Positions 4,746 to 36,535 of a stretch of DNA of 64,000 nt are shown here, one piece after another. Source of the stretch: a bacterium (GTDB taxonomy: Bacteria; Hinthialibacterota; Hinthialibacteria; Hinthialibacterales; Hinthialibacteraceae); the NCBI GenBank assembly GCA_016125385.1, contig WGLV01000014.1, positions 1-64,000 on the forward strand, written 5' to 3'. The notes below the pieces were generated by a model. That model saw nothing but the letters and a program-made list of their open reading frames with translations, was not told where the DNA came from and did not search any database. The number at the start of each line of letters is the position of its first letter. Within the stretch, counting starts at the first letter, position 1. Both the position numbers and the translations under genes were made by a program.

Positions 4746-4982
4746 GCGGTGACTATGGTGATCGCGATCACTGCCAAGGTGAAACAGGCCCCTGATACCA
4801 GCGTTGATGAGAAGTTGACTAAATAGATAACCAGGCACTTTCTATTCATGAACCGGTTTTCTATACTTTGAAGAAGAGGCTTGGGGCGGCTTTTATTCAT
4901 TCAAAAGCCGAATCTCTGTTCAACACCTTACCGAACGCGGCGATGCAGCCACTCCGGATCGACAGCCAGAAAGGATCGCGCG

Positions 4983-13678: not shown

Positions 13679-13692
13679 ATTTTGCCGCGCCC

Positions 13693-14343
13693 ATGAGACG
13701 AGCACGTGTAAATATAAGACGGCCTTTCAAAAGAAACCTCGTCGATCAGAATTTAATTCTGATTGTTTGTGAAGGTGAAAAGACAGAACCTTATTATTTT
13801 CGCTCACTCGTAAAACATTGGCGTATCCGTCCCGCGACGGTGCGGATTATTGGCGAGGAATGTGGCAGCTCACCTATTAACGTCGTGGATTTTGCAGTTG
13901 AGCAAAAAAATGGAAATTTGAAAAAGGTAAAAAAAGGCGAGAGTGCAAAATTTGATGAAATTTGGTGCGTTTTCGATCACGAGGGCGTTTACAAGCATCA
14001 GAGTTTTGATCAAGCGTTGGATAAAGCGCAGAGTAATGATTTAAAAGTTGCTTTTTCCGTTCCCTGTTTTGAGTTCTGGTATATGCTTCACTATAAGTAT
14101 AGTACGAGTAAATTTGAATGCGCAGATTCAATGATATCGGCTTTCAAAAAAGAAGCAGGTTTAAAAAAGTATTCTAAATCCGGGGTTCCATTTGATGCAC
14201 TAATCGACAAACTTCCCTTCGCCTTCAATAACGCGACCCAGCTTAGACAAGACTATGAAAATAGATCAGAAGGAATCAAAACCCGCTGGCCTTATACGGA
14301 AGTTGATCTTCTTGTAAAAGTGTTAAAAGCATACGACAAGTAA
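13693..14343 (+). CDS. rloB: RloB-like protein, partner of the AAA ATPase
   Basis: A 216-residue RloB/AbiLii-family protein. The N-terminal motif LILIVCEGEKTEPYYF (residues 17-32) and the later DEIWCVFDHEG segment (about 93-103) match the acidic pattern of a Toprim-like nuclease fold; catalysis is inferred from family resemblance. It follows the ATPase by 14 bp and shares its AT-rich composition. Its stop lies 5 bp from the stop of the convergent DUF1080 gene, so no intrinsic terminator fits between them. Confidence 0.78.
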   Translation: MRRARVNIRRPFKRNLVDQNLILIVCEGEKTEPYYFRSLVKHWRIRPATVRIIGEECGSSPINVVDFAVEQKNGNLKKVKKGESAKFDEIWCVFDHEGVYKHQSFDQALDKAQSNDLKVAFSVPCFEFWYMLHYKYSTSKFECADSMISAFKKEAGLKKYSKSGVPFDALIDKLPFAFNNATQLRQDYENRSEGIKTRWPYTEVDLLVKVLKAYDK

Positions 14344-19867: not shown

Positions 19868-20230
19868 ATGTCTAACATGGAAACCACATCAACCGAAATC
19901 GCCAACCCCGAATTCCGCCGTCTTCTGGCCGACCGAATCCGTGCCCTCGCTGACCCGACCCGCATTCACCTTCTTCATTGTCTTATGCAGGAGGAATGCT
20001 GTGTGCGGGAACTGGCCGCGCAGGTAGGTAAAAGCCAGGCGACCGTCTCCAAACACCTCGCCATATTATTCCGTCATGGGTACGTCGCCCAACGCAAAGA
20101 CGGAGTCCAGACCTTTTACCGGGTGGAGGGAGAAGGGCTCAATTTTTTTTGTCAGTATATGTGCGGCTCACTGAAAGAGCACTTGAAGAAAATGGCCGTG
20201 TATGGCCTGGAGCCGGTTTTTAGAGGCTGA
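19868..20230 (+). CDS. ArsR/SmtB-family transcriptional regulator
   Basis: A 120-residue winged-helix repressor. LADPTRIHLLHCL (28-40), the recognition region VRELAAQVGKSQATVSKHL and the wing VAQRKDGVQTFYRV are canonical. Cysteines C44/C45 occupy the ELCVCDL-like metal site of alpha-3, and C95 and C99 lie in the last helix; C38 is also close. This suggests metal, metalloid or thiol-redox sensing, but the ligand is not determinable. GAGGT about 7 bases before ATG 19868 is the ribosome site. It has its own promoter and terminator and lies immediately upstream of the multiheme cytochrome region, so control of that region is possible but unproven. Confidence 0.9.
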   Translation: MSNMETTSTEIANPEFRRLLADRIRALADPTRIHLLHCLMQEECCVRELAAQVGKSQATVSKHLAILFRHGYVAQRKDGVQTFYRVEGEGLNFFCQYMCGSLKEHLKKMAVYGLEPVFRG

Positions 20231-20422: not shown

Positions 20423-22108
20423 ATGAAATGTTCTATATGTTCGACGATGCTGACTTTTCTTTTAACCACAGCATGGCTGTGTGTGATCTCATCGCCGGGT
20501 TTAACACAAACTCTGCCGTTCGCCTCCGGCGATCTGATGGCGGGGTCAGGTAACTGTGCGTTATGCCATGACAATCTGGCCGATCAGACCGGAGCGGATG
20601 TATCCATTGGCGGGCAGTGGCGATCGACCATGATGGCCAACAGCGCGCGGGATCCTTTTTTTATCGCGAAAGTGAGCACCGAGATCGAACGATACCCCGC
20701 GCTGTCGTCCATTATTCAGGACAAGTGCGCCAATTGCCACATGGGTCTGGCTCATGTCGAGGCTCAGGCCAAGGGAGAATCAACGCTGATGTTCGGCGAC
20801 GGATTCACCAATCCCGCTAATTCGTATCACGCTCTGGCGATGGACGGGGTTTCCTGCACGCTCTGCCACCAGATTGAAAACGAAGGCCTCGGAGAGCCGG
20901 AAACTTTCAGCGGACATTACCCTATCGATCGGGAAACCGCCAAACCCGATCGGATCGTCTATGGACCCTATGGGAATTCGCTTCTGAATCCGATGCAGTC
21001 GGCAAGCGGTTATCGCCCTGAGCACGGCGAACACCTCACGGAATCGAAGTTATGCTCTACCTGTCACACGCTTTATACGCCCACGGTGAACGATGAAGGA
21101 GAAATCGTGGGCGAGTTTCCGGAGCAGATGGTCTATCTGGAATGGCAACACAGCGCGTTCGCGGACGGAGGCGATGACGACCGTACCTGTCAGCAATGCC
21201 ACATGCCCGCCGCGCCGGGCGGTGTGAAGATTTCATCCATTCCTCCCAACCTTTCGCCGCGTGAACCGTTCGCACAACATCATTTCGTGGGGGGTAACGT
21301 CTTCATGCTGCGCGTGCTGCGCGATAACGCGGATGAGCTGGGCGTTACCGCGACCACGGCGCAATTCGACGCGACCATCAACCGCGCTTTGAGCCACATG
21401 GAGAATCTGGGAGCCAAACTTGTCATTCTCGACGCCAGCGCGCCGGCAGGGCGGTTAAACGCGAACCTATCTGTAACGAATGCCGCGGGGCACAAGTTTC
21501 CCGCCGGTTTTCCGTCTCGCCGCGCGTGGATTCACTTTCAGGTTGAGGACGCCAACGGTGCCATGGTGTTTGAATCGGGGCGTCTGATGGACGACGGGAG
21601 TATTGAAGGCGTCGACTCGGACGCCGATGAGACGCGTGTTGAGCCTCACTATGAGACGATTAACTCGCCGGAACAGGTTCAGGTGTATGAGGCGTCGTTG
21701 ATGGATGTGAATGGGGAAGTTACCACCACGCTGTTGCGCGCGGCGGGGTATCTAAAAGACAACCGGTTGCTTCCACGCGGATTCGACAAAGCGACGGCGG
21801 AAAGCGATATAGAGGTTGCCGGCGGCGCCCGGCAGGATGCGGATTTCATCGGCGGGGGAGACGTGATTCGCTATAGCGTGGACGTATCCGCGTACGCGGG
21901 GCCGTTTACGGTGCGGGCGGAATTGATGCTTCAGTCGATATCGCATCCCTTCACTCGCGATTTGCGCCAGGCATCCACGGAGGAGGCCCGGCGCTTCATG
22001 TCGTACTATGACCAGCAAGAGGACAGTGCGGTGATCTGCTCCAGCGCGATGCTTGAAAGAGTTGAAAAGACCACTGCGATTGAAGATTGGGAACTGTACA
22101 GGGATTAA
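20423..22108 (+). CDS. exported pentaheme cytochrome c with C-terminal beta domain
   Basis: A 561-residue periplasmic or secreted protein with a signal peptide (residues 1-30). Five c-type heme motifs occur in the first half: CALCH, CANCH, CTLCH, CSTCH and CQQCH. A beta-sandwich region then opens with LSVTNAAGHKFPAGFPSRR, a signature of large multiheme cytochromes of anaerobic respirers. The start at ATG 20423 is set by AGGAGTG at 20411; an earlier TTG at 20387 would overlap little and has no such site. It is a single gene bounded by terminators and convergent with the minus cytochrome operon. A reductase or electron-transfer role is inferred from heme content; the substrate is unknown. Confidence 0.85.
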   Translation: MKCSICSTMLTFLLTTAWLCVISSPGLTQTLPFASGDLMAGSGNCALCHDNLADQTGADVSIGGQWRSTMMANSARDPFFIAKVSTEIERYPALSSIIQDKCANCHMGLAHVEAQAKGESTLMFGDGFTNPANSYHALAMDGVSCTLCHQIENEGLGEPETFSGHYPIDRETAKPDRIVYGPYGNSLLNPMQSASGYRPEHGEHLTESKLCSTCHTLYTPTVNDEGEIVGEFPEQMVYLEWQHSAFADGGDDDRTCQQCHMPAAPGGVKISSIPPNLSPREPFAQHHFVGGNVFMLRVLRDNADELGVTATTAQFDATINRALSHMENLGAKLVILDASAPAGRLNANLSVTNAAGHKFPAGFPSRRAWIHFQVEDANGAMVFESGRLMDDGSIEGVDSDADETRVEPHYETINSPEQVQVYEASLMDVNGEVTTTLLRAAGYLKDNRLLPRGFDKATAESDIEVAGGARQDADFIGGGDVIRYSVDVSAYAGPFTVRAELMLQSISHPFTRDLRQASTEEARRFMSYYDQQEDSAVICSSAMLERVEKTTAIEDWELYRD

Positions 22109-22130
22109 TTCAATCCATGTTTTCCGTCAT

Positions 22131-22162
22131 AAAAAAAGCCCCGCGATTTTGCGGGGCTTTTT
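22131..22162. terminator. bidirectional terminator between cytochrome genes
   Basis: AAAAGCCCCGC/GCGGGGCTTTT form an 11-bp perfect stem around GATTTT, with an A-run on the left and a T-run on the right, between two convergent genes. Confidence 0.93.
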
Positions 22163-22179
22163 CGTGTTGGATGGATTGG

Positions 22180-23349
22180 CTATTCGCTCGCCGTGAATCC
22201 TTTTTTCGGATCATACGAGCGGCCATCGTCATGACAGCCCGCGCACGAGGCGGTTACTTTGCCGCTGCTGGCGATGAGCATGCCGTCTTTCTCCGTCATT
22301 GAATCTTCATGGCAATCGGTACAACCGGCTTCGACGTGAACTTCATCAAGCGCAACGCCGGTCAGGGCATGGTTGAAGCCTTCCGCTTTCCAGCCGCTTG
22401 CGTGACACGCCGTGCAGGACGGGTTGAGTTTGGTGAAGGCGCCGCTGGTGGTGTGGCAATCGCGGCAGTGCAGCGCCTGATGAAACGGCTTCAGAACGAA
22501 GTCGACGCGCTTTTCATGGACGAACACATCGTCTTCGGAACGGCCGTGACAATGCTCGCAATCGTCGTCGCCGTGGCATACGAAACAGCGGTCATGCATC
22601 TGGTCAGGCGTCAAGTCGCCCATCGGTTTGATTTCGGTTTTCGTCGGATCGTGGCATGCGTCGCACCCCTGATCGGCGTGGCAGTCGCCGCAGTTACGGT
22701 CATAGCGGTATGCGTGTGTTTTGTGATGGAACGGAACCGGTTCGACGTCTTCGGATTTATATACGATCAGCTCGCGGAAGGGTACGACCTTGTACTTTTT
22801 TTCGTATGCCGCCTGAGTCGCGGTTCCATTGAGTTTACCGCCGGCCTTTTTTTCATGACAGAAAACGCATTCGGTGTTCGGGTCCCATTGAGTGTGGCAC
22901 CCGATGCACTGGCGGTGATAGGCGCCCTTTAAACCGGGCTGTTTGAGATTTTCATGGATAATGTCCTTGGGGTGGCAGGACGCGCACGCCGCCGGTTGAG
23001 GGCTTTCTTCATTGTAATGATGGCACATCTGGCAGCCCTGCGCCGTGCTCGACATGTGTGCGTGAGTTTCGTGATTGAACAAAACCGGCACGTAAAGGTC
23101 TTCCACATCCTGCAGCTGGTTGAGCTCGACCATTTTCGGCCCCATTTTGGAGAGAGGTAGCACCTCGCTCTTCAGCCTGGGGCAGGGGAGCAGGCAGGGA
23201 TCGTCTTTGGTGGGATTCAGGCACTTGTGACAGAACGTACAATCGACCTGCACGCCCGGATGAGGCGATTGCGTCGCCTCGGGAGCGCTTGAGGCCGAGA
23301 GCGCGAACGATGCGATCAGAGCGATCGCCGCGATGCGAAAGCGAATCAT
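22180..23349 (-). CDS. periplasmic 13-heme cytochrome c (c3/HmcA-like)
   Basis: A 389-residue exported protein with signal peptide (residues 1-22). Thirteen CxxCH motifs are spread along its length, from CTFCH near residue 37 to CAGCH near the end. Many lone histidines (FNHETHAH, PFHHKTHAY, PFHQALH) are placed as distal ligands, as in cytochrome c3/HmcA families. It is the last gene of the operon after the 11-heme/cytochrome b and Fe-S/NrfD genes, and AGGAGA precedes its start. By analogy with Hmc and Qrc complexes it would exchange electrons between the membrane complex and other periplasmic carriers. Confidence 0.88.
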   Translation of the reverse strand: MIRFRIAAIALIASFALSASSAPEATQSPHPGVQVDCTFCHKCLNPTKDDPCLLPCPRLKSEVLPLSKMGPKMVELNQLQDVEDLYVPVLFNHETHAHMSSTAQGCQMCHHYNEESPQPAACASCHPKDIIHENLKQPGLKGAYHRQCIGCHTQWDPNTECVFCHEKKAGGKLNGTATQAAYEKKYKVVPFRELIVYKSEDVEPVPFHHKTHAYRYDRNCGDCHADQGCDACHDPTKTEIKPMGDLTPDQMHDRCFVCHGDDDCEHCHGRSEDDVFVHEKRVDFVLKPFHQALHCRDCHTTSGAFTKLNPSCTACHASGWKAEGFNHALTGVALDEVHVEAGCTDCHEDSMTEKDGMLIASSGKVTASCAGCHDDGRSYDPKKGFTASE

Positions 23350-23369
23350 GATGTGTTCTCCTGTTGGAC

Positions 23370-25499
23370 TCAGCCTTGTTGTTTTTCCGGCGCGGGCAGG
23401 ACTGGGAATACCGTCACCGCCAACCGGTACATCAGAACCAGCGTCGAGATAAGCCCCGCCGTTACGGCGATCTCCATCAAACTGGGGAAATAGCGCTGGG
23501 TTTCATACACGGGGTGGAACGCGGTCAGAAAGACGTTGATACGGTTGAGCATCACGCCGCCCACGATCAACGCCGCCGCCGTGAACAGCAACGCGGGCGA
23601 TTTTCGCACGGTACGGGTGCAGAGCATGACGAAGGGCAGAACCACGCCACCGATCAACTCGACGAGGAACCAGTTGGATTCGGCCGATCCGTTCCATAAC
23701 AGCGGAACCGCGTCGCGAATCACCAGATCGCCGATCTTGAAAGCAAGATAAACCGCCAACAGCACCGCTGCGATTTTGGAGAGCGGCGCCAGCAGTTCCA
23801 TTTCCGGCTTGCGGCCCAATGATTTTGAAGCCCACATCGATTCGAACACCACCATCGGAAAGCCAACGGCGAAAGCCGACAGAAGGAACAGCAGCGGCAG
23901 AACCGGCGTATACCACAGCGGGTGAACCTTGCCCGGCGCGATCACCATCAATGCGCCCAGCGACGACTGGTGCATACAGGAGAGCATGACGCCCGCGATG
24001 ATAAAGATCCACATGACTTTGGGCAGGGTTGCGTCGGCGATGGAGAGCAGCGTTTCAGCCAGCCCGTTCAACGCCTTTAACGGCCCCGGCAACGCGACGC
24101 GGCCCTTAAAGCGCTCAACCGCGATAGGCAGGAATTCGATGTACAGAACGGTCAGATAAAACGATACGCACATGCCTACTTCAAACAGCACGGAATGGCC
24201 CGACCACATCCACGGCATCATGGGATGCCAGACGTTGTAATAGCGCCCGAGGTCGGCGGTTAAACCGATGACCACGAAGGTATAGCCCAGCACCGCTGTG
24301 AGAAGCGCGGGGCGTACCAGCGGGTGGTATTTTTCCTGATGAAAGATGTGAACCAGCGCGGCGGTTGTGAATCCGCCAGCCGCCAGCGCGACGCCGGTGG
24401 CGACGTCGATGGCGATCCATATGCCCCACGGGAACTGGTCGCTCAGATTGGTGGCGGCGCCGATGCCGAAGATGAAACGATACGCCGCCGCGCCCGCGCC
24501 GACGAGGGCGATCGCGATCAGCAGCAGAACGCCGGGCGTGAAGAACGGTTTGGCGACCGGTTCCGGATCGGGGTGATGATGAGCTTGACTTGGATTATGG
24601 TTTTTAACGGGCGCTTCTTCCGCGCCGTCTTCTTCCTCAGGCTTGCCCAGGCTCATAATCAGCCCGAGTACGCCGAACAGGGCCGCGGGAGGCACGAACC
24701 AGCGGAAGATGCCATGCTGCATTTTTTCGGTGCGCAACGAGGGCGCGACCGCCGCTACCGTGGGGAGGTGAAGTTCTTCAAAGGGTTTGTTGGAGACATA
24801 CAACCACGATGTGCCGCCGGCTTCATGTTCGCCGTATACTTTATTGACATACTGATCCGGCTCGGCGCCGATCTTTCCATGAGCCAGGGTCAGCAGGTCT
24901 TTTTTCTTGCCGAATGTCAGGCATTGCGGCGGGCATACCTCCACGCAGGCCGGAACGCCGCCGTCCTTGATGCGGTCATAGCACAGGTTGCACTTCTGCA
25001 CCTTGGGCGCCAGCGGTTCATTGTATTGATAGGCGGGTATCTGAAAGGGGCAGGCCACCATACAGTAGCGGCATCCCATGCAGCGATCGGGGTCGTAGAT
25101 CACCGCGCCGGTTTCCGTCTTGGTGAAAGCAGTGACGAGGCAGGCTGAATAACACGCCGGTTCATCACAATGAAAACACTGGTATTTCACAAAGACGGGT
25201 TTTTCGCTGCCTTCCGGCGGATCGGTTTTGTTAACGACGGTGTAGTGACCGCCGTCGGGCCGCCGGAAGAGGTCGAATACTTCCTTCTCTTCAAATGAGG
25301 CCAGCGTCTGGGTTGGAAGATGATTGGATTCATTGCAGGCCCATTCGCACTTTCTGCATCCGATGCACTGGCTGACATCGGTCAGGACGCCGAACGCGTC
25401 GCCTGAATCCCCCCTGGTTTCGGAAGCGAAAAGAGGGCCGCCCGCCACGCAGGTAGCCCCCATTGTCGCCGCCGTCTGAAAGAAACTTCGTCGATCCAT
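23370..25499 (-). CDS. HybA-HybB-like fusion: Tat-exported four-cluster Fe-S protein joined to NrfD membrane subunit
   Basis: A 709-residue fusion. A twin-arginine signal (MDRRSFFQTA) is followed by a ferredoxin-like part (residues about 35-220) with sixteen cluster cysteines in four sets: CIGCRKCEWAC, CFHCDEPACYSAC, CMGCRYCMVAC and CNLCYDR...CVEVC. After a HybA-like membrane anchor (about 270-290) comes an NrfD/PsrC/HybB domain with roughly ten helices. Such modules pass electrons between quinone and periplasmic redox proteins. HybA and HybB are normally separate genes. ATG 25499 is used (GGGAG upstream, Tat motif at once); a GTG at 25517 is possible. It lies 20 bp before the 13-heme cytochrome gene and 45 bp after the upstream gene. 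Confidence 0.88.
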   Translation of the reverse strand: MDRRSFFQTAATMGATCVAGGPLFASETRGDSGDAFGVLTDVSQCIGCRKCEWACNESNHLPTQTLASFEEKEVFDLFRRPDGGHYTVVNKTDPPEGSEKPVFVKYQCFHCDEPACYSACLVTAFTKTETGAVIYDPDRCMGCRYCMVACPFQIPAYQYNEPLAPKVQKCNLCYDRIKDGGVPACVEVCPPQCLTFGKKKDLLTLAHGKIGAEPDQYVNKVYGEHEAGGTSWLYVSNKPFEELHLPTVAAVAPSLRTEKMQHGIFRWFVPPAALFGVLGLIMSLGKPEEEDGAEEAPVKNHNPSQAHHHPDPEPVAKPFFTPGVLLLIAIALVGAGAAAYRFIFGIGAATNLSDQFPWGIWIAIDVATGVALAAGGFTTAALVHIFHQEKYHPLVRPALLTAVLGYTFVVIGLTADLGRYYNVWHPMMPWMWSGHSVLFEVGMCVSFYLTVLYIEFLPIAVERFKGRVALPGPLKALNGLAETLLSIADATLPKVMWIFIIAGVMLSCMHQSSLGALMVIAPGKVHPLWYTPVLPLLFLLSAFAVGFPMVVFESMWASKSLGRKPEMELLAPLSKIAAVLLAVYLAFKIGDLVIRDAVPLLWNGSAESNWFLVELIGGVVLPFVMLCTRTVRKSPALLFTAAALIVGGVMLNRINVFLTAFHPVYETQRYFPSLMEIAVTAGLISTLVLMYRLAVTVFPVLPAPEKQQG

Positions 25500-25544
25500 T
25501 TTGCCGCTCCCGTCCACTTCGGGGCGGCGAAGAGTCGTACTATT

Positions 25545-27482
25545 CTACCGCGGCTCTTCGTCCGAAGTGGCGCTGTTGTCTTCAATGATGTCTTGATCAT
25601 TCAACCGCTCGAATTCAAGCGGGTGACGATTCTTCAAATGATGTAACGTCATTCGGCCGTTCAGCCAGGTTACGCTCATCGGGTATTCTTCGGGATGGAA
25701 GATCACGAAGAAGAAATGCCACACTACGATGGCCAGCGTCGCCAATATAGCCTCATAGTAGTGTATTCTTTCCGCGATGTCGATGAGCCATTTGGGCATG
25801 TACTCAAAAGAAAGGATGGGGAACCAGAGAATCAGGCCGGTTACCGCCATGATAATGACGCCCCAGATCAGCGCCCAGAATTCCATTTTTTCGGTGTAGT
25901 CATAGCGGTCGAATTTGGGCGGTTCATTGCGCTTGCCCAGATAAAACGCGAGATGCTGATAGACATGGGTCAGGTCGCGTGGACGCGGCATGAAGGCGAT
26001 GACTTCAGAGCGGCCGCGGCGGGTGCAGAGCATGTAGACGCCATACATGAACGATACGATTATCAGACCCACGCCGTTGATGCGGTGGATCGTGCCGCGG
26101 ACGGATTCAGTAAAGCCGATGTACGACAAGCCGGTTACCCACCATGAATTCGGCGACAGTAAGGCGAAGCCCGTAATGGAGAGCATGATAAAGGTAAACG
26201 TCAGCACCACGTGACAGAAGATTTCAAAGTTGGTAAAGCGCCGGTATGACTTCATCCCCTTTTCCTGGCGGAACTTTTCTTTCAGCAGCGCCCACAGGAT
26301 CACGCCGTTGTGCAACAACATGCCGCCAATGACCAGGATAATCAGGGGGATGTAAATGCGTGGAACCCACGCCACGATGGAGGAAGACCTGAGCGTAACC
26401 ACCGAGTGAATCGGCGCGGCCAGTACGTTGGCGCTGATGCCTTCGTGGCATTTACCGCAGGTTTCGACGAGACGCTCGGGACTGACCGTCGAACGCGGAT
26501 CGCTGGGCGGAAGAATGAGGTGGTTGCCGTGGCAACTGGCGCAGTTCGCGGCTTTGGTGGAGCCGCCCTTCATCGCCAGACCGTGATAACTTTCGAAATA
26601 ATTCGTCACTTTCTGAGTGGCGATGTTGTACTTTTCGTTGATAACGATGGAGGAGTGGCAGCGCGCGCAGGTGTTGCCCGCCACGTTGAAGAACGAGACC
26701 GGTGAGCGGGGGTCGTTCGTACGGTAAATGGCGTGTTCGCCGTGGCAGTCGGTGCAGATCGGCGCGTCTTTATGGCCATACATCGCCGATTCGCCGTGAA
26801 TGCTTTGCAGGTATTGTTCGCTCTCGACCTTGTGGCATTGGCCGCAGGTTTTGGGCACATTCATGAAGTTCGTGCGCGATTCTGGATCACGAAGCGGTTT
26901 GATGTCGTGAGCGCCGTGACACTGGATGCAGGAAGGCGCTTTTTCATTGCCCGCCGCCAGTTCCTTAGCGTGGACGCTTTCCTGAAACAGCGCTTCACGC
27001 TGGAAGATGTCGGTTTTGTATTCCGACATGATCGCGGGATCTGAGTGGCATTTTCCGCAGGTATTGGCGATGTTGAAATGATTGGTTCTGGAATCGCGGT
27101 TATCGGCGGGAAGAATGCCGTGCGGTTCGCCGTGGCAATCGAGGCACTTCGGTCCTTTTTCATCTTTGTGGACGGAAGTAACCAGTTTTTCATTCGCCTC
27201 ATGACAACTGGAGCAATCGACCTTGGGAAGCGGGTCGTCATGGGGGAGTTCTTCAACTGAACTATGGCAGTCAACGCAGCTTAACCCACTGTGAATCGAG
27301 GCGTCAAAGCGTTCCGGATCGATGTACATGGACGTTTCAACGCCGTCCAGTTCGCCGGTCATGTCCTTTTCGCCGTGACATTCGAGACAGGTATTGTTGT
27401 CGCTGACGTCTTGAGCGGATGTGGAAAAGCAGAAAACCAATGAGATAACAGCGAGAAGCAGAATGAAGTGATGCCGTTTCAT
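25545..27482 (-). CDS. 11-heme cytochrome c fused to a cytochrome b membrane domain (CbcL-like layout)
   Basis: A 645-residue protein. It has a signal peptide (residues 1-22), a periplasmic region with eleven CxxCH motifs (CLECH through CGKCH, about 30-370), then five membrane helices of the cytochrome b/FdnI/HydC type. Candidate b-heme histidines lie in the second helix (FCHVVLTF), third (TIHRINGVG) and last (VVWHFFFVIFHPEEYP). The same layout is known in Geobacter CbcL, an inner-membrane quinol oxidase feeding extracellular respiration; orthology is not claimed. The longer TTG start at 27524 is rejected because ATG 27482 gives a clean signal peptide. It is first in the minus operon, transcribed from the shared AT-rich spacer. 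Confidence 0.85.
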   Translation of the reverse strand: MKRHHFILLLAVISLVFCFSTSAQDVSDNNTCLECHGEKDMTGELDGVETSMYIDPERFDASIHSGLSCVDCHSSVEELPHDDPLPKVDCSSCHEANEKLVTSVHKDEKGPKCLDCHGEPHGILPADNRDSRTNHFNIANTCGKCHSDPAIMSEYKTDIFQREALFQESVHAKELAAGNEKAPSCIQCHGAHDIKPLRDPESRTNFMNVPKTCGQCHKVESEQYLQSIHGESAMYGHKDAPICTDCHGEHAIYRTNDPRSPVSFFNVAGNTCARCHSSIVINEKYNIATQKVTNYFESYHGLAMKGGSTKAANCASCHGNHLILPPSDPRSTVSPERLVETCGKCHEGISANVLAAPIHSVVTLRSSSIVAWVPRIYIPLIILVIGGMLLHNGVILWALLKEKFRQEKGMKSYRRFTNFEIFCHVVLTFTFIMLSITGFALLSPNSWWVTGLSYIGFTESVRGTIHRINGVGLIIVSFMYGVYMLCTRRGRSEVIAFMPRPRDLTHVYQHLAFYLGKRNEPPKFDRYDYTEKMEFWALIWGVIIMAVTGLILWFPILSFEYMPKWLIDIAERIHYYEAILATLAIVVWHFFFVIFHPEEYPMSVTWLNGRMTLHHLKNRHPLEFERLNDQDIIEDNSATSDEEPR

Positions 27483-27919
27483 GTTGTCGTTCGCAACCTT
27501 CCTGCGGAGGATGTGTCTGTACAAGAGTATATGGCTAAATAGCTAAAAATGTGAATAGTTGGATGAAATAAAATCTTGAAAATCTCCTGCTTTTTTTGCT
27601 TGATAATGATGACCAAAATAATCGAGTATATGTTTATATATCCTGTCTTTTTGATGAACCTGATTTAAGCAGGATTTAATAATTATTGACTTGGATGTGG
27701 GATTGAGCGCATTTTTAAAAATAAAATAGTTTATAAAATATATAAAATTCCTTAAAAATCAGCGAGTTAGAAAATTTGACCTTTTTAGGAAAAAAATCGA
27801 AAAATAGGCTTTAATCTGTTGCCAGATGTGGGAGAATTGTGGTAAATGTATTATTAGATGAATAGCTAACCAGCGATGCTTTTTTACGTCGCCACCCGAT
27901 TATAGGTATTTTTCTAACG
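27483..27919. other. 437-bp AT-rich spacer between divergent cytochrome operons
   Basis: It lies between the starts of the two operons and must hold both promoters. TTGACT at 27686 and TTGACC at 27776 could be -35 boxes on the plus strand, but no convincing -10 is spaced correctly. No gene, RNA or clear repeat was recognised. Confidence 0.6.
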
Positions 27920-29827
27920 ATGAATCTGAATCGTTTTCTGCATCGATCGACTTTCCTCGCCGCGCTGTTCCTCGCGTCGCCCGCTTTCGCCCGGATTGAT
28001 ATCGTGGCGGTTTCGCCTCGGGCCGCAGGGCTCTCAGCGGATGATCTGTTCGTCGAAACCTCTTCGGGTCTGCACGTCGCGGGGCTGGGCGAGAAAGTGT
28101 ATCTTCGCGCTTCGGCCAATCAGACCGGCGCGACGCTGTCGGATATTCAATGGACGCTGACCAAGAAGCCAAGCGGATCGGCGGTTGATTTTGTAATTAA
28201 CGGTCAAACGATGACCGCTTTCGTTCCCGATAAAACCGGCGAATATCAGGTCGCGCTGTCCGCGAAATCATCCAGCGGCGCCACGCTCAACGAGACGGTG
28301 CGAGTCGTGGGCGGAACTTATGACGGGGCGGGGAATCTGACCGATGCGCCTCCCGGTTTGCAGTGCGCGCTCTGTCATACCGATAACGCGAAGGGTTGGC
28401 TTAAGACCAATCACGCTCATGTGCTTGAAAACCACCTGAACGGGATGCGGTCCGATCAGTACGACGAATCATGTTTCGCCTGTCACACCACCGGTTTTCA
28501 TGCCGAGGGCGGCATCGCCAATAAAGGATTCACCGACCGCGTCGACGAAGCGGGGCTGACTCTCGCCGATCTCGCCGATCAGGTGAATGAAGCGTATCGC
28601 CTCAATCATGACAAAGATCCGGGGAACGATGTCGCCTACTATGACATGCTGCCGAATTCCGTAAAGCAAATGGCGAACGCGCAGTGTGAAATGTGTCATG
28701 GTCCCGGCAGCCAGCACCTGGGTAATACCGCCAACATCGAAAAACCCTGGCATTCCAATTCATGCCTGCGTTGTCACGACGCGAAAGGCTTCTCGAAAGA
28801 TCTCGAAACCGAGCATCAGCCTTACGCGGCGGGACCCAACCTCCACACTCAGCCGACCGCGATATTCCAGACCGCTCCAGCGCTGCTTCAGACCGCCTGC
28901 GCGAAATGCCACTCGGCCGAGGGCTTCGTGACTCTTGCGGTTGAGGGCGGAACGGTCAGTCAGCTCAGCCCCAAGACGCAGCCGCACGGCGTAACCTGCG
29001 CCGCCTGCCACGATCCGCATGACTCCAGCCACCCCAACCAGCTGCGTACCGTCGCGGCGGTTACGCTTGACAGTGGGCAGCAGTTCGACGGCGGCGGAAA
29101 AGGCAACCTTTGCGCCAACTGCCATCAATCACGCGTACCCTCCGATCTGGAGAATTACATTCAATCGAGTTCAAACGGCCCTCACTTCGCCCCGCAGGCC
29201 GACATCATGATGGGCGTTAACGTCTGGACCTATGGTGAAGAACCCAAACGCCGCGAATCGGTGCATCAGGAAGTCGTTCAAGACACCTGCGTCGCCTGTC
29301 ACATGGCGCGCGTTCCGCATGACGGCTGGACCGATGAAAGCGGCGTGGTGATGGGCGGTCACAGTTTCCTGATCCGTTCGCGGGTGAGCGAAGCGGATAA
29401 TCATCAAAACGCCTGCACGCCGTGCCACCTCACCATGAAGTCGCTCGACCGCGTTCTGACCACTGGCCGGGATTATGACGGCGACGGCGTAAAAGAAGGC
29501 GTTCAATCGGAAGTGAAGGGATTGATGATTCGCATCGGTCAGATTCTGGCGGATCGCTATCCCGGCGTTACCGTGGCGGAAGACGGCGCGCTCAATGTGA
29601 CGGCCAGTCTTTACCAGAAGATGACTTTCGATGAGAAAGCGGCCGTGTACAACGTCCATATGTTCTACCGCGACGGCAGTTTTGGCATTCACAACGCCAG
29701 CCTGACCGTCGAGACGCTGCAGAAGACGTACGGCGCCATCGCCGGAACTTCATTCGCGGCGGAGTTTCCAAAAGCGTACATCATTGGCAGCACCGGCATC
29801 GAAGATTGGCCGGCGCATATCGAATAA
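27920..29827 (+). CDS. exported nonaheme cytochrome c with N-terminal beta domain
   Basis: A 635-residue protein with a signal peptide (residues 1-24) and a PKD/Ig-like N-terminal domain (about 50-135, YLRASANQTGATLSD to TGEYQVALSAK). Nine CxxCH motifs follow: CALCH, CFACH, CEMCH, CLRCH, CAKCH, CAACH, CANCH, CVACH and CTPCH. The C-terminal helices end in the AAVYNVHMFYRDGSFGIHN pattern seen at the equivalent place in NrfA/octaheme reductase relatives. There is no CxxCK motif, so a classical NrfA-type nitrite site is not supported. A calcium-loop-like DYDGDGVKEG lies near 517. It is first gene of the plus operon; the ribosome site is weak. Confidence 0.82.
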   Translation: MNLNRFLHRSTFLAALFLASPAFARIDIVAVSPRAAGLSADDLFVETSSGLHVAGLGEKVYLRASANQTGATLSDIQWTLTKKPSGSAVDFVINGQTMTAFVPDKTGEYQVALSAKSSSGATLNETVRVVGGTYDGAGNLTDAPPGLQCALCHTDNAKGWLKTNHAHVLENHLNGMRSDQYDESCFACHTTGFHAEGGIANKGFTDRVDEAGLTLADLADQVNEAYRLNHDKDPGNDVAYYDMLPNSVKQMANAQCEMCHGPGSQHLGNTANIEKPWHSNSCLRCHDAKGFSKDLETEHQPYAAGPNLHTQPTAIFQTAPALLQTACAKCHSAEGFVTLAVEGGTVSQLSPKTQPHGVTCAACHDPHDSSHPNQLRTVAAVTLDSGQQFDGGGKGNLCANCHQSRVPSDLENYIQSSSNGPHFAPQADIMMGVNVWTYGEEPKRRESVHQEVVQDTCVACHMARVPHDGWTDESGVVMGGHSFLIRSRVSEADNHQNACTPCHLTMKSLDRVLTTGRDYDGDGVKEGVQSEVKGLMIRIGQILADRYPGVTVAEDGALNVTASLYQKMTFDEKAAVYNVHMFYRDGSFGIHNASLTVETLQKTYGAIAGTSFAAEFPKAYIIGSTGIEDWPAHIE

Positions 29828-29849
29828 GTTTAAGCAAGGAGACAGCAAC

Positions 29850-30422
29850 ATGAAACGGCTTCTTATCCTGGGACTCATTGTTGGAACCGCGGGATTACTT
29901 CTCTTTCCCGCTCAGCCAAGCGTCAGCGACGAAGCGGACGACATCGCTTTCGTTGGCGCGGCCAAGTGCAAAATGTGCCATAACAAATCCAGTTCGGGCA
30001 AGTTTTATGACGACTGGGAAGCGGGCCCCCACGCCAAGGCTTTTGAAGTTCTGAAAGACGACGAAAAGAAAGACCCCAAATGCCTGAAATGCCACACCAC
30101 CGGCTATGGCATGAAGGACGGTTTCGTCAGTCTGGAAGAAACCGAGAAAATGGCGGGCGTTCAGTGTGAAATGTGCCACGGCCCCGGCGAAAAGCACATC
30201 AAATCGAAAAAAGATAACGTGATTCCGCACGTCTGGAAGCCGGTCGAAGAGACCTGCAAAAAGTGCCATAACGAAGAAAATCCCAACTGGGATCCGAATC
30301 GCTACACTGACGCGGACGGCAACAAGACGGGCTTCGATTACAAGCAGGCCGTAAAGAAGATCAATCACGGCGCCGTTTTTGAAGCCATTGGCAAAAAGCC
30401 CCCGATGACGGGCGATCTGTAA
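29850..30422 (+). CDS. tetraheme cytochrome c554-like protein
   Basis: A 190-residue periplasmic protein with a signal peptide (residues 1-25) and four heme motifs, CKMCH, CLKCH, CEMCH and CKKCH, in the order and spacing of the cytochrome c554 family. In Nitrosomonas c554 takes electrons from hydroxylamine oxidoreductase; related proteins act as general periplasmic shuttles. Start ATG 29850 is fixed by AAGGAG about 8 bases before it. It lies 22 bp after the nonaheme gene and is lysine-rich, suggesting interaction with acidic partners. Confidence 0.87.
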   Translation: MKRLLILGLIVGTAGLLLFPAQPSVSDEADDIAFVGAAKCKMCHNKSSSGKFYDDWEAGPHAKAFEVLKDDEKKDPKCLKCHTTGYGMKDGFVSLEETEKMAGVQCEMCHGPGEKHIKSKKDNVIPHVWKPVEETCKKCHNEENPNWDPNRYTDADGNKTGFDYKQAVKKINHGAVFEAIGKKPPMTGDL

Positions 30423-30489
30423 TTCGATACGCCGGATCAGAACACGGTTTGTTGTTACCACCATTACGGTTTGAGAGTGCGCAGCGGGA

Positions 30490-31884
30490 ATGATCAGACG
30501 AAACCAACCTATGTGGATCGCACTTTTTCTGTTCGGTCTCGCCGGAGCGATGTTCGCTCCGGCGGGCTGGGCGGAAGAAGCGGATGGCGCCGTAGCCGAC
30601 GCCACCGGGCAATCGGTGTTTTCTTCGGCGAAATTGTCGGGATCGCTCAGTTCAACCTATTACTTCCGTGAGCGGAACGGCGATACCGATAATGATTTTT
30701 ACAACTTCTTCTCGGCTCGCCTTGATGATGTTGTAAAAGATCGAGTCGACGTCGGCATGTCGTTCTACTGGCATGAAGACCTCGATGGAACCACCGGCTC
30801 TTCGAAACGGTGGGATCCGTTTCTGGATATCGACCAGGCGGGCAATGAAGACTTCCGTCTCTTTACCGCCTATATGACGATCAAGCAGCTGGTCTTTGAC
30901 GACAGTTACCTGCGCGTCGGGCGTCAATATCTGGAAGACATCGATAACGCTCATTTCGACGGCGCGACGTATTACTTCTCGCCCGTCGACAAGTTGGGCG
31001 TGACTTTATTCGGCGGCGTGCCGGTGGCGTTTTATTCGGATACTGACGGCGACCTGTTTTATGGCGCCAGCGTCGATTACCGGTTCTCAGACCGGAGCCG
31101 CGCGGCCGTCCGGTATTATCGCTACGACGCCGAGCCATTTCAGGATGATCTGTTGACCCTCGAAATGTGGAATCAGATCTTTCCGTGGTTGATGAGTCAT
31201 GATGAATTCTCGCTGTTGAACGGTGAACCGTACATTTATAACGGCGACATCTACGCGCGATGCGAGGCGATCGACCTCGACGTGATGGTGAAGGCGGTCC
31301 ACATGTTCGCCACTATCTCCGACTCGACGATCAACTTCAATCCGTATTTCCCCTTGCTGAACAGCTATGAACCGTTTGACTATATTTCGTTGTACATGGT
31401 CAAAGGGGTTTCGGATCTGTTGAGCCTGACGGGCGGCGTCGACTATCGCCAGGCGGAGGATTCAGGCACGGTCACCGAAACGACGAATCGCGACTACTGG
31501 CGCGGGACGGTCGGAGTGGAGATTTATCCCACGAAGCAACTGACCCTCAGCGCCAACGCTGAATTCTGGAACGCGAACCCCAACGATGAATTCACCGGAT
31601 TTTCCGGCGAAATCGAATACCGGCCCGCGAAACAGTGGACCCTGACCGCCGGCGCCGAATACGGCGAGTACGTTCAGGAATACCGCGACGAGTTTCTGCT
31701 GTTCTTCGGCGAAGAACGCGTCTTCCGCATCACCCCCGACGTAATCACCTATTACGCCAGCGTGAAGTGGCAGCCGTGTGAACGCGCTTACACCAAGGCG
31801 ACCTTCGAGTACGAGGTGGAAGACGGCATTTACGATAACGACGAGTGGTTTGCATTCAGGCTTCAGGCAGGGGTGAATTTCTAA
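30490..31884 (+). CDS. outer-membrane beta-barrel protein of the cytochrome operon
   Basis: A 464-residue protein with a signal peptide (residues 1-28, AGWA-EE). The body consists of alternating, aromatic-rich strands (LSGSLSSTYYFRER, LFYGASVDYRFSDRSRAAV, LTLSANAEFWN, WTLTAGAEYGEY) and ends in ..LQAGVNF, a C-terminal phenylalanine typical of barrels folded by BamA. I count at least 16 likely strands by eye, which is approximate. It has no heme motif. The next gene, an 11-heme cytochrome, starts one base after the stop, so the two products are likely made together, as in porin-cytochrome conduits. It shows no clear similarity that I recognise to MtrB. Confidence 0.72.
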   Translation: MIRRNQPMWIALFLFGLAGAMFAPAGWAEEADGAVADATGQSVFSSAKLSGSLSSTYYFRERNGDTDNDFYNFFSARLDDVVKDRVDVGMSFYWHEDLDGTTGSSKRWDPFLDIDQAGNEDFRLFTAYMTIKQLVFDDSYLRVGRQYLEDIDNAHFDGATYYFSPVDKLGVTLFGGVPVAFYSDTDGDLFYGASVDYRFSDRSRAAVRYYRYDAEPFQDDLLTLEMWNQIFPWLMSHDEFSLLNGEPYIYNGDIYARCEAIDLDVMVKAVHMFATISDSTINFNPYFPLLNSYEPFDYISLYMVKGVSDLLSLTGGVDYRQAEDSGTVTETTNRDYWRGTVGVEIYPTKQLTLSANAEFWNANPNDEFTGFSGEIEYRPAKQWTLTAGAEYGEYVQEYRDEFLLFFGEERVFRITPDVITYYASVKWQPCERAYTKATFEYEVEDGIYDNDEWFAFRLQAGVNF

Positions 31885-31885
31885 G

Positions 31886-32851
31886 ATGACTCAGCGCTTG
31901 ACGGTTTCAGTTCTATTTCCATGTTTCCTGGCGGCGGCGGGGCTGCTCTTTCTGGGGTGCGACCCCGAGAAGGAGTCGATTGAGAACTTTCCTCACAAGC
32001 CCCATATCGAGCAGGAAATCTCCTGTGACACCTGCCACGCCGTCGAGGCGGAGGGCATCGCTATGCCCACGCTCGATACCTGTCTGACCTGCCACGACGT
32101 CGAAGAAGACGAAGCGTATAATCGCTGTTCAACCTGTCACGACAAAGTTGACGTTCACCTCTCCAACGACATGGGAGAGAAGGTCGTTCAGCATCAGAAA
32201 ATCTTCAGTAAGCTCATACCAAAAGAGTGGGCGGACGTGAAGTACAAGCACGCCGAGTATTGGGAAGACACCGAAAACTGCCTCCTTTGCCATACCAATA
32301 TCGCAAGCGCGATGGGATCTTCGCTGGATAACCTGCCTTCCATGAAAACGGCGATATCCGTGCAGGAGCAGTTTGGTTTCTCCACTGAATGCTCCGTTTG
32401 TCACCTTGAAATCAATAAGTTGAATCCTCCCGCCAGCCACGACAAATCGTGGGAAAAGATGCACGGGCGCATGGCGGTGTTCAGCAACAAGCAGGATTGC
32501 CTTATGTGCCATCAGGAAGCCACCTGCCAGGCGTGTCATGAGGTTCAGAAGCCAGACAACCATACCAGTCTGTTCCGCCGTCAGACGCACGGCCTGTTGG
32601 CTTCATTCGACCGGGACAAGTGTCAGACCTGTCACCGCGTCGATGAATGCGAAACATGCCACCGCGCCAGCGCGCAGCCCATCCCGGCGGCGTCTTACCA
32701 TACTCCGGACGCCTCCTGTCTGACCTGCCATGATCCGATGGCCGCGCAGGGACCCTCGCCGCGTCCGCCACAGCGCCTGTTCAAGCCCATGCCTCACCGC
32801 CTGATGATGGGAGTGACATCGCAGAAGTGCTTGGAGTGCCATTCTTTCTGA
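31886..32851 (+). CDS. 11-heme cytochrome c, probable lipoprotein
   Basis: A 321-residue protein with a lipoprotein-type signal peptide ending LLFLGC (cysteine 25; lipobox by the permissive rule). Eleven CxxCH motifs run from CDTCH to CLECH at the extreme C-terminus. The first motif is preceded by FPHKPH, as in c7/c3 hemes. Aspartate follows the lipid cysteine; in E. coli that favours inner-membrane retention, but the rule does not hold in all phyla. The gene is coupled to the barrel gene (one-base gap) and followed by a strong terminator. Placement in or on the outer membrane is inference. Confidence 0.85.
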   Translation: MTQRLTVSVLFPCFLAAAGLLFLGCDPEKESIENFPHKPHIEQEISCDTCHAVEAEGIAMPTLDTCLTCHDVEEDEAYNRCSTCHDKVDVHLSNDMGEKVVQHQKIFSKLIPKEWADVKYKHAEYWEDTENCLLCHTNIASAMGSSLDNLPSMKTAISVQEQFGFSTECSVCHLEINKLNPPASHDKSWEKMHGRMAVFSNKQDCLMCHQEATCQACHEVQKPDNHTSLFRRQTHGLLASFDRDKCQTCHRVDECETCHRASAQPIPAASYHTPDASCLTCHDPMAAQGPSPRPPQRLFKPMPHRLMMGVTSQKCLECHSF

Positions 32852-34447: not shown

Positions 34448-34628
34448 CGCGGTTTTGCCTGGACGTCCCGATCGCTACGCCTCGCCCCTCCACGGATTAT
34501 CCGCCCGCGAAGCATACGAAATGACATCCAATCTCAGGCCGAACGGCTTTGCGCCTATCCGCGCTCATTGATGGATACGGCGGCTTTCGGCTACAATCCA
34601 GTGCGATTTCATCTTGAAGGATGGTTCC

Positions 34629-35852
34629 ATGACCGTTGAATCACCGTCTTTGATCAAACACGCCGTAGAACATCATTCCGCCGCCAGCAAAAAAGGCCTT
34701 CTCGAACGCTTGTTCACCTATTGGTTCGACGGTTTCGTCTATAACCAGATATGGGAAGACCCGCGCGTCGACATGGAAGCGTTACGGCTCGATTCGAACA
34801 GCCGAATCATGACCATCGCGTCAGGCGGCTGCAACATTCTCAACTATCTGACCGCCGGTCCCGCCGCGATTCACGCCGTCGATCTGAACCAGTATCACGT
34901 TCATTTCACAACGCTCAAATTCACCGCGCTGCGTTGTCTGCCCAATCACGAGGCGTTCTTTGACTTTTACGGTTACGCCAACAAGCGTGAAAACGTGGCG
35001 AATTATTACAAGTACATCCGCGAGAATCTGCCCGAGGCGACCCGCGAATATTGGGAAACCGGCGGCATCGGCAGCGCGCCCCGCATTCATTATTTTGAGA
35101 ACAACATCTATAACTACGGCGCGATGGGCAAGTTCATCGGTTTTGTGCACCGGTTGTGCATCTGGTTCGCCGAACATCCCCGCGAGATGCTGAAGGTGAC
35201 CGATCTCGACAAGCGAACGGCGTTATTTAACGAGAAATTTTCTCCGTTCTTCGACCGCTGGCTGGTCAAGACGCTGGGGCGTATGCCGTTCATGTTTTAC
35301 AGCCTGGGGATTCCGCCGCAGCAGTTCGAGTGCATGAAGCGCGAGTGTAACGGTCAGCTCAACGAATTGTGCCGCGACCGCATCCACCGGATGGCGTTGC
35401 AGTTTCCCATTGATGACAACTATTTCGCCTGGCAGGCGTTTGACCGACGATACGACACTGAAAACCGCGTGGCGATTCCCGATTATCTGAAGGAAGAGAA
35501 CTACGCAGCGGTGAAAACTGGTCTCGACAAGGTGACGCTCGACCTGATCTCCACGACCAACTTCCTGAAAAAACAGCCCGACGATTCGATGAACCGTTTC
35601 ATCCTGCTCGATTCGATGGATTGGATGGACGCCGCCGACATCACCGAACTCTGGTCGGAAATCGCGCGCGTGGGGCAACCCGGCAGCCGCGTTATCTTCC
35701 GAACCGCCGCCTGGGATTCGCCCATTGAGCCTTCATTACCAGCCGATTTGATGGCGCGATTTCATTATTACGAAGAAGATTCGAAGCGGCTCTTTCAGCA
35801 GGACCGCTCGGCGATCTATGGCGGTTTTCACATCTATGAATTGAAGGGTTGA
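34629..35852 (+). CDS. btaA: BtaA-like 3-amino-3-carboxypropyl transferase (DUF3419)
   Basis: BtaA transfers the aminocarboxypropyl group of S-adenosylmethionine to diacylglycerol, the first step to the betaine lipid DGTS. The 407-residue product shows the family pattern: YNQIWEDPRVDMEAL near the start, then MTIASGGCNILNYL (SAM-binding), HAVDLNQYH, and a long helical C-terminus. ATG 34629 is supported by GAAGGAT 8 bases upstream. The next gene encodes the matching N-methyltransferase, which makes the assignment firm. Confidence 0.87.
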   Translation: MTVESPSLIKHAVEHHSAASKKGLLERLFTYWFDGFVYNQIWEDPRVDMEALRLDSNSRIMTIASGGCNILNYLTAGPAAIHAVDLNQYHVHFTTLKFTALRCLPNHEAFFDFYGYANKRENVANYYKYIRENLPEATREYWETGGIGSAPRIHYFENNIYNYGAMGKFIGFVHRLCIWFAEHPREMLKVTDLDKRTALFNEKFSPFFDRWLVKTLGRMPFMFYSLGIPPQQFECMKRECNGQLNELCRDRIHRMALQFPIDDNYFAWQAFDRRYDTENRVAIPDYLKEENYAAVKTGLDKVTLDLISTTNFLKKQPDDSMNRFILLDSMDWMDAADITELWSEIARVGQPGSRVIFRTAAWDSPIEPSLPADLMARFHYYEEDSKRLFQQDRSAIYGGFHIYELKG

Positions 35853-35866
35853 TAGAGACCAGAGAT

Positions 35867-36535
35867 ATGAATCAAACCGCCGACCACGCCGCACTCATGG
35901 ACCGCATCTATCGCTATCAGCGGTTTGTCTACGATCTCAGCCGCAAGTATTACCTTCTGGGCCGCGACGCTCTGATTCAGGAGATGGACGTCAAACCCGG
36001 CGATCATGTTCTGGAAATGGGATGCGGTACGGCGCGTAACTTGATCCTGCTGGCTAAGCTCCGCCCCGACGCGACGTTGTATGGCATTGACGCATCACAG
36101 GAGATGCTCAATACCGCGCAGATCAAAGTCGACCGCGCCGGACTGACCGATCGGATTATTTTGAAACACGCTCTCGCGGAAGACGTTGAATACGGGAAGA
36201 CCTTCGGGCTCGACCGGCCGTTTGATGCGGTGTTTTTCTCTTACTCTCTGTCTATGATTCCAACCTGGAAGCAGGCGGTTCAAACCGCGCTCAAAAACCT
36301 CAAACCGGGGGGGACGGTTTACATTGTCGACTTCTGGGACCAGGGCGGTTGGCCCGGTTGGTTTCAGGGGATGTTGAAAGGCTGGCTGGCGTTATTTCAC
36401 GTCAGGCATGAACCGGAATTGCTCGATTATCTCAAGACGTTTGAAAACGCGGGCGCCGACCGTATTCAGATCGATTCCATCTTTCGGCGCTATGCATTCA
36501 AAACCCGCCTCCGCAAGGAAACCCCGTCCGCCTGA
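35867..36535 (+). CDS. btaB: BtaB-like SAM-dependent N-methyltransferase
   Basis: BtaB methylates diacylglyceryl-homoserine three times to give the betaine lipid. The 222-residue class I methyltransferase has motif I HVLEMGCGTARNL, the acidic ribose-binding residue in YGIDASQEM, and the post-motif GGTVYIVDFWD. An alternative in-frame TTG at 35849 overlaps btaA by 4 bp and would add six residues. Identity rests on the adjacent btaA plus the fold; on its own it would be a generic methyltransferase. It abuts the stop of the convergent brnA. Confidence 0.8.
   Translation: MNQTADHAALMDRIYRYQRFVYDLSRKYYLLGRDALIQEMDVKPGDHVLEMGCGTARNLILLAKLRPDATLYGIDASQEMLNTAQIKVDRAGLTDRIILKHALAEDVEYGKTFGLDRPFDAVFFSYSLSMIPTWKQAVQTALKNLKPGGTVYIVDFWDQGGWPGWFQGMLKGWLALFHVRHEPELLDYLKTFENAGADRIQIDSIFRRYAFKTRLRKETPSA

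Follow-up and report, generated by a model that had tools for sequence, protein, structure and literature searches.

A multihaem cytochrome locus in a Hinthialibacterota draft genome as a candidate extracellular respiratory chain around a porin-cytochrome conduit

The DNA analysed here is a stretch of 64,000 nucleotides from contig WGLV01000014.1 (hereafter the window); it lies on contig 32 of the draft genome G000, which comprises 5.53 Mb. At 20423-32851 it carries a locus of eight genes, lettered A to H (Table 1), that is rich in CxxCH haem-binding motifs. Our reading is that the locus encodes a chain for extracellular respiration with a porin-cytochrome conduit at its core, and we put the probability of this at roughly 0.7. 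The reading is carried by the gene of an outer-membrane barrel (G) and that of a predicted 11-haem lipoprotein (H), which lie side by side here and in distant genomes, by a membrane cytochrome (D) that resembles the quinol oxidases of extracellular respiration, and by a nine-haem protein (E) that is distantly related to a cell-surface reductase.

In such a chain D would take electrons from menaquinol at the inner membrane, with the B-C module doing so in parallel, and a homologue of ImcH encoded elsewhere in the genome would probably contribute to the same step. Electrons would then pass through the periplasm via F and B to H, which, held by its lipid anchor, may thread or dock into G and carry them over the outer membrane. 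At the cell surface H would hand them to E, and E would in turn pass them on, whether to minerals, to humic matter or to a partner cell.

Gene layout and conservation

The cytochromes A, B, D, E, F and H carry 5, 13, 11, 9, 4 and 11 CxxCH motifs respectively (53 in total), compared with a top count of 3 and means of 0.01-0.17 when the residues of each protein were shuffled 2000 times, and no other open frame across the 64 kb window has more than two. The motifs indicate a potential for haem binding rather than occupancy. Seven of the genes form two tightly spaced runs that diverge: D-C-B, read from the minus strand, has gaps of 27 and 20 bp, and E-F-G-H, read from the plus strand, has gaps of 22, 67 and 1 bp. 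A preliminary description of this DNA had reported six cytochrome genes with 53 motifs, an Fe-S/NrfD fusion and a beta-barrel, arranged mostly as two divergent operons; its counts and positions were exact, and the spacing of the two runs bears out the arrangement.

Four of the five other genomes of the family hold G-H together with E and a divergent D, and in the fifth (G002) the contig stops before the place where D is expected. G lies directly upstream of H throughout the family, F is found in all the other family genomes except G005, and the B-C pair is present in G001 and G003; the G004 and G005 loci retain D and E-H without it. The preliminary description had proposed a search for the whole eight-gene set in related genomes; of these, D, E, G and H are indeed conserved in the family, whereas A is not and B-C is kept only in some members.

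G homologues occur in 11 of the 14 genomes of the phylum, and strong matches to H (E-value at most 1e-25) in 41 of 386 sampled genomes, 11 of them in the phylum and 30 outside. In each of the 21 further loci listed, the open reading frame (ORF) immediately upstream of H is haem-free and encodes 295-486 amino acids; two of these loci (L165 and L166) are from the same class, and a few of the ORFs are barrel-like by size and position only. A wider count of H beside a barrel gives 67/71, a figure that includes duplicate loci and B-C pairs, which makes the 21 loci the cleaner measure. The route across the outer membrane suggested in the preliminary description gains support from the dozens of genomes in which the gene immediately before H is of barrel size.

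In other genomes the G-H pair is often found without E. E, G and H occur together in Pontiellaceae bacterium B1224, in one metagenome-assembled genome (MAG) each of Kiritimatiellales and Lentisphaerae and in two Planctomycetota MAGs, with more distant versions of the three in Calditrichota. Pontiellaceae B1224 (L077) and the Kiritimatiellales MAG have the full set, with D, E, F, G and H plus a homologue of ImcH. In Pontiellaceae B1224, D and ImcH share one strand, and the opposite strand carries F, a putative hemA, E, G and H in that order; the presence of the gene read as hemA is counted in favour of the proposed chain.

The barrel, its cytochrome and known conduits

The AlphaFold2 model of G has a mean predicted local distance difference test score (pLDDT) of 85.7 and a predicted template modelling score (pTM) of 0.78, and its 22 membrane-spanning strands were counted by hand from the DSSP line. 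G ends in phenylalanine, as is common in outer-membrane proteins. The 50 PDB matches listed by Foldseek for this model are mostly outer-membrane barrels (MOMP, Occ/OprD, FimD, AlgE), which supports the predicted designation of outer-membrane barrel and nothing narrower; at the level of sequence G matched no PDB entry, and no curated family above threshold. The Pfam matches of H are to general cytochrome c7-type families. Its lipobox cysteine, Cys25, is invariant in 16/16 aligned homologues from several phyla, in agreement with the earlier suggestion that the protein is lipoprotein-like. It is more likely that H is a cytochrome plugging G than that it is an extracellular reductase, and for the latter role E is more likely to be the right candidate.

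According to the preliminary description the cluster matched no named conduit, which was too strong a statement. Known porin-cytochrome (Pcc) conduits include OmbB-OmaB-OmcB of Geobacter and two-gene barrel/12- to 14-haem clusters in Anaeromyxobacter and Kuenenia (PMC4245776), those of Anaeromyxobacter pairing a barrel with a 12- to 14-haem cytochrome of 338-344 amino acids (Shi et al., PMC4245776). The H profile finds a 12-haem protein of 361 amino acids in Anaeromyxobacter oryzae (1.3e-24), the gene of which is preceded by an ORF of 497 amino acids with a weak match to the G profile (1.7e-7). Because this barrel/12-haem pair, which fits the published pcc description, is related to H and, at a weak level, to G, we place G-H in the same kind. 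The G-H locus shares with Pcc loci a barrel gene beside that of a multihaem cytochrome of ~300-400 amino acids (here 1 bp away, the adjacency being conserved) and inner-membrane and periplasmic cytochromes nearby. It differs in that H is a predicted lipoprotein and that the large accompanying cytochrome is E and not one of the OmcB type, the comparison with Geobacter OmbB and OmaB being by description only. G-H is a putative Pcc-type conduit in the broad sense, and the variant it represents is widespread, with a predicted lipid anchor on the cytochrome and a partner resembling OcwA.

MtrCAB, MtoAB and PioAB work alike, with a cytochrome in a barrel and an outer cytochrome, but MtrB has 26 strands (PMC12133095) against the 22 of G, G has no match to an MtrB model or to any other NCBIfam model, and H reaches a marginal 21 of the 192 bits set for the DmsE family, so the pair is not of the MtrAB type. 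ExtABCD, ExtEFG and ExtHIJKL of Geobacter (PMC6148476) are likewise non-Mtr conduits made up of several cytochromes and a barrel, but their set and order differ from those of the window, where only A, a doubtful member, is weakly similar to ExtKL. The verrucomicrobial porin-MHC (multihaem cytochrome) clusters (PMC5615132) have also been proposed as conduits, in other phyla, and pair a 7- to 8-haem cytochrome with a barrel of 710-743 amino acids that is weakly similar to G. Three verrucomicrobial loci (L061, L066 and L068) hold one or two 9-haem E homologues, a further E-like 9-haem gene, a 7-haem lipoprotein-like gene and a barrel-like gene for 710-743 amino acids, with D and ImcH homologues upstream of these in L061 and L068; they probably correspond to the porin-MHC system described in PMC5615132, together with the quinol oxidases belonging to it.

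Quinone-side modules

D is best read as a quinol oxidase of the CbcL/MtrH/MtoC type. These proteins combine a multihaem CxxCH N-terminal half with a HydC/FdnI-like b-type membrane half (PMC6295460), and D likewise has a multihaem N-terminal half and a b561/FdnI-type membrane half (PF01292), with 5 hydrophobic segments C-terminal of the haem domain. Five histidines of the b561 part are invariant among homologues (n=7), and D shows 62-69% identity in four family genomes; CbcL of G. sulfurreducens has 9 haem motifs compared with the 11 of D. In relatives D is joined by a 6-haem gene of ~500 amino acids with a CX3CH motif, six CX2CH motifs and a NapC/NirT-type N-terminal region, which corresponds to the signature of ImcH (~500 amino acids, CX3CH and six CX2CH; PMC6295460). 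The genome studied here encodes its own ImcH homologue outside the window (G000:C70:31455-32933), with the CX3CH and six CX2CH motifs, three membrane segments and 62% identity to the G003 copy. Quinol oxidases of the D type and the ImcH type are hallmarks of extracellular respiration (PMC6295460). A second D-like membrane cytochrome, with 19 haems, lies beside D or the conduit in several relatives (L035 9238-12048, L037 8814-11768 and L046 10718-13552), and the window has none.

C, in which a periplasmic HmcB/HybA-type protein with an Fe-S dicluster domain is fused to an NrfD domain, has 11 hydrophobic segments and an N-terminus that appears Tat-like (twin-arginine translocation) by eye. It matches the HmcB (1e-95), HybB (3e-110) and HmcC (8e-89) models, each under the curated cut-off, and in bits the scores stand at 56/400 for HmcA (matched by B), 320/420 for HmcB and 299/550 for HmcC. 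The module thus resembles both the Hmc complex of sulfate reducers and HybA/HybB, with strong matches of C to the HmcB, HmcC, HybA and HybB models, but HmcB and HmcC are fused, no HmcD-F were seen, and HmcA has 16 haems compared with 13 in B. Since no Hmc/Hyb model is matched above its curated cut-off, we do not file B-C as Hmc; it is a predicted Hmc/Hyb-like quinone module. B adjoins C in G001, G003, G012 and L097, the counterpart of C being split into two genes in G012. HybA/HybB as the sole label for C was dropped in favour of this description: the preliminary description had used that label, and the family match holds, but the module is at least as Hmc-like, given the 13-haem HmcA-like B. 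Its proposal that electrons flow from quinol over the periplasm is supported by the CbcL-like D and the HmcBC-like C.

Periplasmic carrier and candidate reductase

Homologues of F, the predicted periplasmic carrier, in four genomes of the family are 58-65% identical to it. E has a signal peptide-like N-terminus and, by eye, an immunoglobulin (Ig)-like domain ahead of its nine haem motifs, and is a member of a conserved 9-haem family found in many phyla. The profile of E against the PDB matches OcwA of Thermincola (6i5b) at 5.4e-20 over five segments, the C-terminal one included, and more weakly MccA, c554, ammonia-forming nitrite reductases and an octahaem nitrite reductase. OcwA is a terminal reductase at the cell surface which also reduces nitrite and hydroxylamine (PMC6703420). 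E shares its nine haems and is homologous along its length, the match spanning the CxxCH regions and a C-terminal DGS-G-HN segment; however, the host of OcwA is Gram-positive and has no outer membrane, whereas E carries the additional N-terminal Ig-like domain and adjoins a barrel conduit. Judged by these similarities, E is likely to be a terminal reductase that is distantly related to OcwA. An isolated second 9-haem paralogue of E is encoded in the same genome (L197 8995-10668; G000:C2:132916-134661), with no G or H nearby.

Table 1. Features of the locus and its surroundings (positions in the window)
Feature	Position	Strand	Basis
ArsR-family regulator	19868-20230	+	PF01022 and NF033788
A: 5-haem secreted cytochrome	20423-22108	+	5 CxxCH; weak ExtKL similarity
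B: 13-haem HmcA-like periplasmic cytochrome	22180-23349	-	PF02085; HmcA model 3e-15, under cut-off
C: HmcB/HybA-type Fe-S + HmcC/HybB-type NrfD fusion, predicted quinone module	23370-25517	-	PF13247, PF03916
D: 11-haem + b561 membrane cytochrome, CbcL/MtrH/MtoC-like	25545-27482	-	11 CxxCH; PF01292 7e-18; Cytochrome_C7
Upstream region common to divergent D-C-B and E-F-G-H	27483-27919		~435 bp between D and E starts; D/E divergent in family members
E: 9-haem cytochrome, OcwA-related	27920-29827	+	9 CxxCH; PF22113, PF13435
F: 4-haem cytochrome c554-type periplasmic carrier (predicted)	29850-30422	+	PF13435 3e-18
G: outer-membrane barrel (predicted)	30490-31884	+	22 strands, without plug domain, C-terminal Phe
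H: 11-haem lipoprotein, proposed barrel-conduit cytochrome	31886-32851	+	11 CxxCH in 321 residues; 1 bp after G

Discussion

A number of results weigh against an extracellular chain and need to be considered alongside those above. E has no lipobox in the window's family, so that a place at the cell surface is a prediction, and the activity of OcwA towards nitrite and hydroxylamine (PMC6703420) leaves a soluble substrate possible for E. MtrB is absent among the 50 PDB fold matches listed for G, where generic barrels appear instead. The model of H is poor and of low confidence (pLDDT 65.6), a fold search of the PDB with it gave no match, and the genome is a draft without physiology. The points concerning E would sit well with the main rival reading, a respiration of soluble substrates in the periplasm. 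Here D, C-B and F would supply electrons to E, a reductase of the NrfA/HAO/OcwA lineage acting on nitrite, hydroxylamine or sulfite, with G letting its substrate or product through and H serving as a lipid-anchored carrier at the inner leaflet of the outer membrane; the relation of the E profile to OcwA, MccA, NrfA and the octahaem nitrite reductase is consistent with this as well. The preliminary description had named a conserved neighbouring soluble terminal reductase as a finding that would overturn it, and none was found among the window genes examined, but the OcwA/NrfA/HAO lineage of E itself includes such enzymes. We nevertheless regard periplasmic respiration of this sort as unlikely, given that E has no catalytic CXXCK motif, that several of its homologues, in Calditrichota and some other groups, do possess a lipobox, and that D-type and ImcH-type quinol oxidases mark extracellular respiration. 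It would also leave unexplained the coupling of a barrel to a lipid-anchored cytochrome of 11 to 14 haems, which recurs in dozens of genomes and often without E.

The same conduit could also work inwards, with an extracellular donor such as Fe(II) or a partner cell supplying electrons that reduce quinone through D or C. Homologues of CbcL/MtrH/MtoC are found in Fe(III) reducers and Fe(II) oxidisers alike, with no sequence feature that tells the direction (PMC6295460), and NrfD modules are reversible in principle. Set against this, Fe(III) reducers are the only organisms from which ImcH is known (PMC6295460), a homologue of it occurs alongside the conduit in relatives and another is encoded in the genome studied here, and E resembles a terminal reductase, all of which makes an inward flow rather improbable. 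More doubtful still is a reading as two independent neighbours, in which B-C-D, a quinone module of the Hmc/Hyb type, would serve the chemistry of the periplasm and E-F-G-H would be an unrelated conduit. Such a division would account for the G004 and G005 loci, from which B-C is missing while D and E-H remain, but D is divergent to E-F-G-H across the family, and B-C is found together with D and ImcH in G012 and adjoins E in a deltaproteobacterial MAG (L097). We therefore favour a single extracellular respiratory chain in which electrons would leave the cell.

If this reading is right, one locus would hold most of the wiring from the quinone pool to the cell surface, in a phylum for which we found no such report. 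The G-H profiles would then make it possible to find conduits by homology in many candidate phyla, with a possible role in metal and humic cycling, and the OcwA family of surface reductases, known from a Gram-positive organism, would stand at the end of Gram-negative barrel conduits. The latter link could be addressed in Pontiellaceae B1224, which is seemingly an isolate (its record carries no MAG label). More tentatively, and with rather less confidence than in the chain itself, G-H-E may be a distinct unnamed lineage of conduits, combining a 22-strand barrel, a lipid-anchored 11- to 14-haem plug cytochrome and an OcwA-related nonahaem reductase, that is spread over many uncultured phyla. Were that so, extracellular respiration would be far commoner there than marker sets based on Mtr, Omb and Ext report.

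Other genes in the window and genome

Gene A had been included in the set by the preliminary description, and proved to lie outside what is conserved. It is a separate plus-strand gene, convergent with B; in the G001 region it has no more than a short match, located at the edge, and it scores 34 bits against the ExtKL model (cut-off 250). Since it is not conserved, it was set aside as a member of the system. On the other side of A, the ArsR-family gene is probably a local regulator, and an ArsR-type homologue with 60-64% identity adjoins the same locus in G003 and G005.

Elsewhere in the window, 4881-6335 encodes a protein with a domain of cytochrome bd subunit I and, after it, one of cbb3-type cytochrome c, which may represent an unusual bd-like oxidase or a quinol-linked protein. 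An AAA_21 ATPase beside an RloB-like gene forms a defence-type pair at 12389-14343, and a sucrose synthase gene lies beside that of a glycosyltransferase/sucrose-phosphate phosphatase fusion at 46478-51018. A DUF3419 protein gene and then a methyltransferase gene at 34614-36535 are read as BtaA/BtaB-like betaine-lipid genes, and a PHP gene and a DUF3419 gene come after the conduit in G001 as well. On another contig of the same genome, L198 2369-7501 (G000:C77) encodes a 10-haem protein near a barrel-like ORF of 434 amino acids, among neighbours that by eye are of nitrate-transport and nitrite-reductase types.

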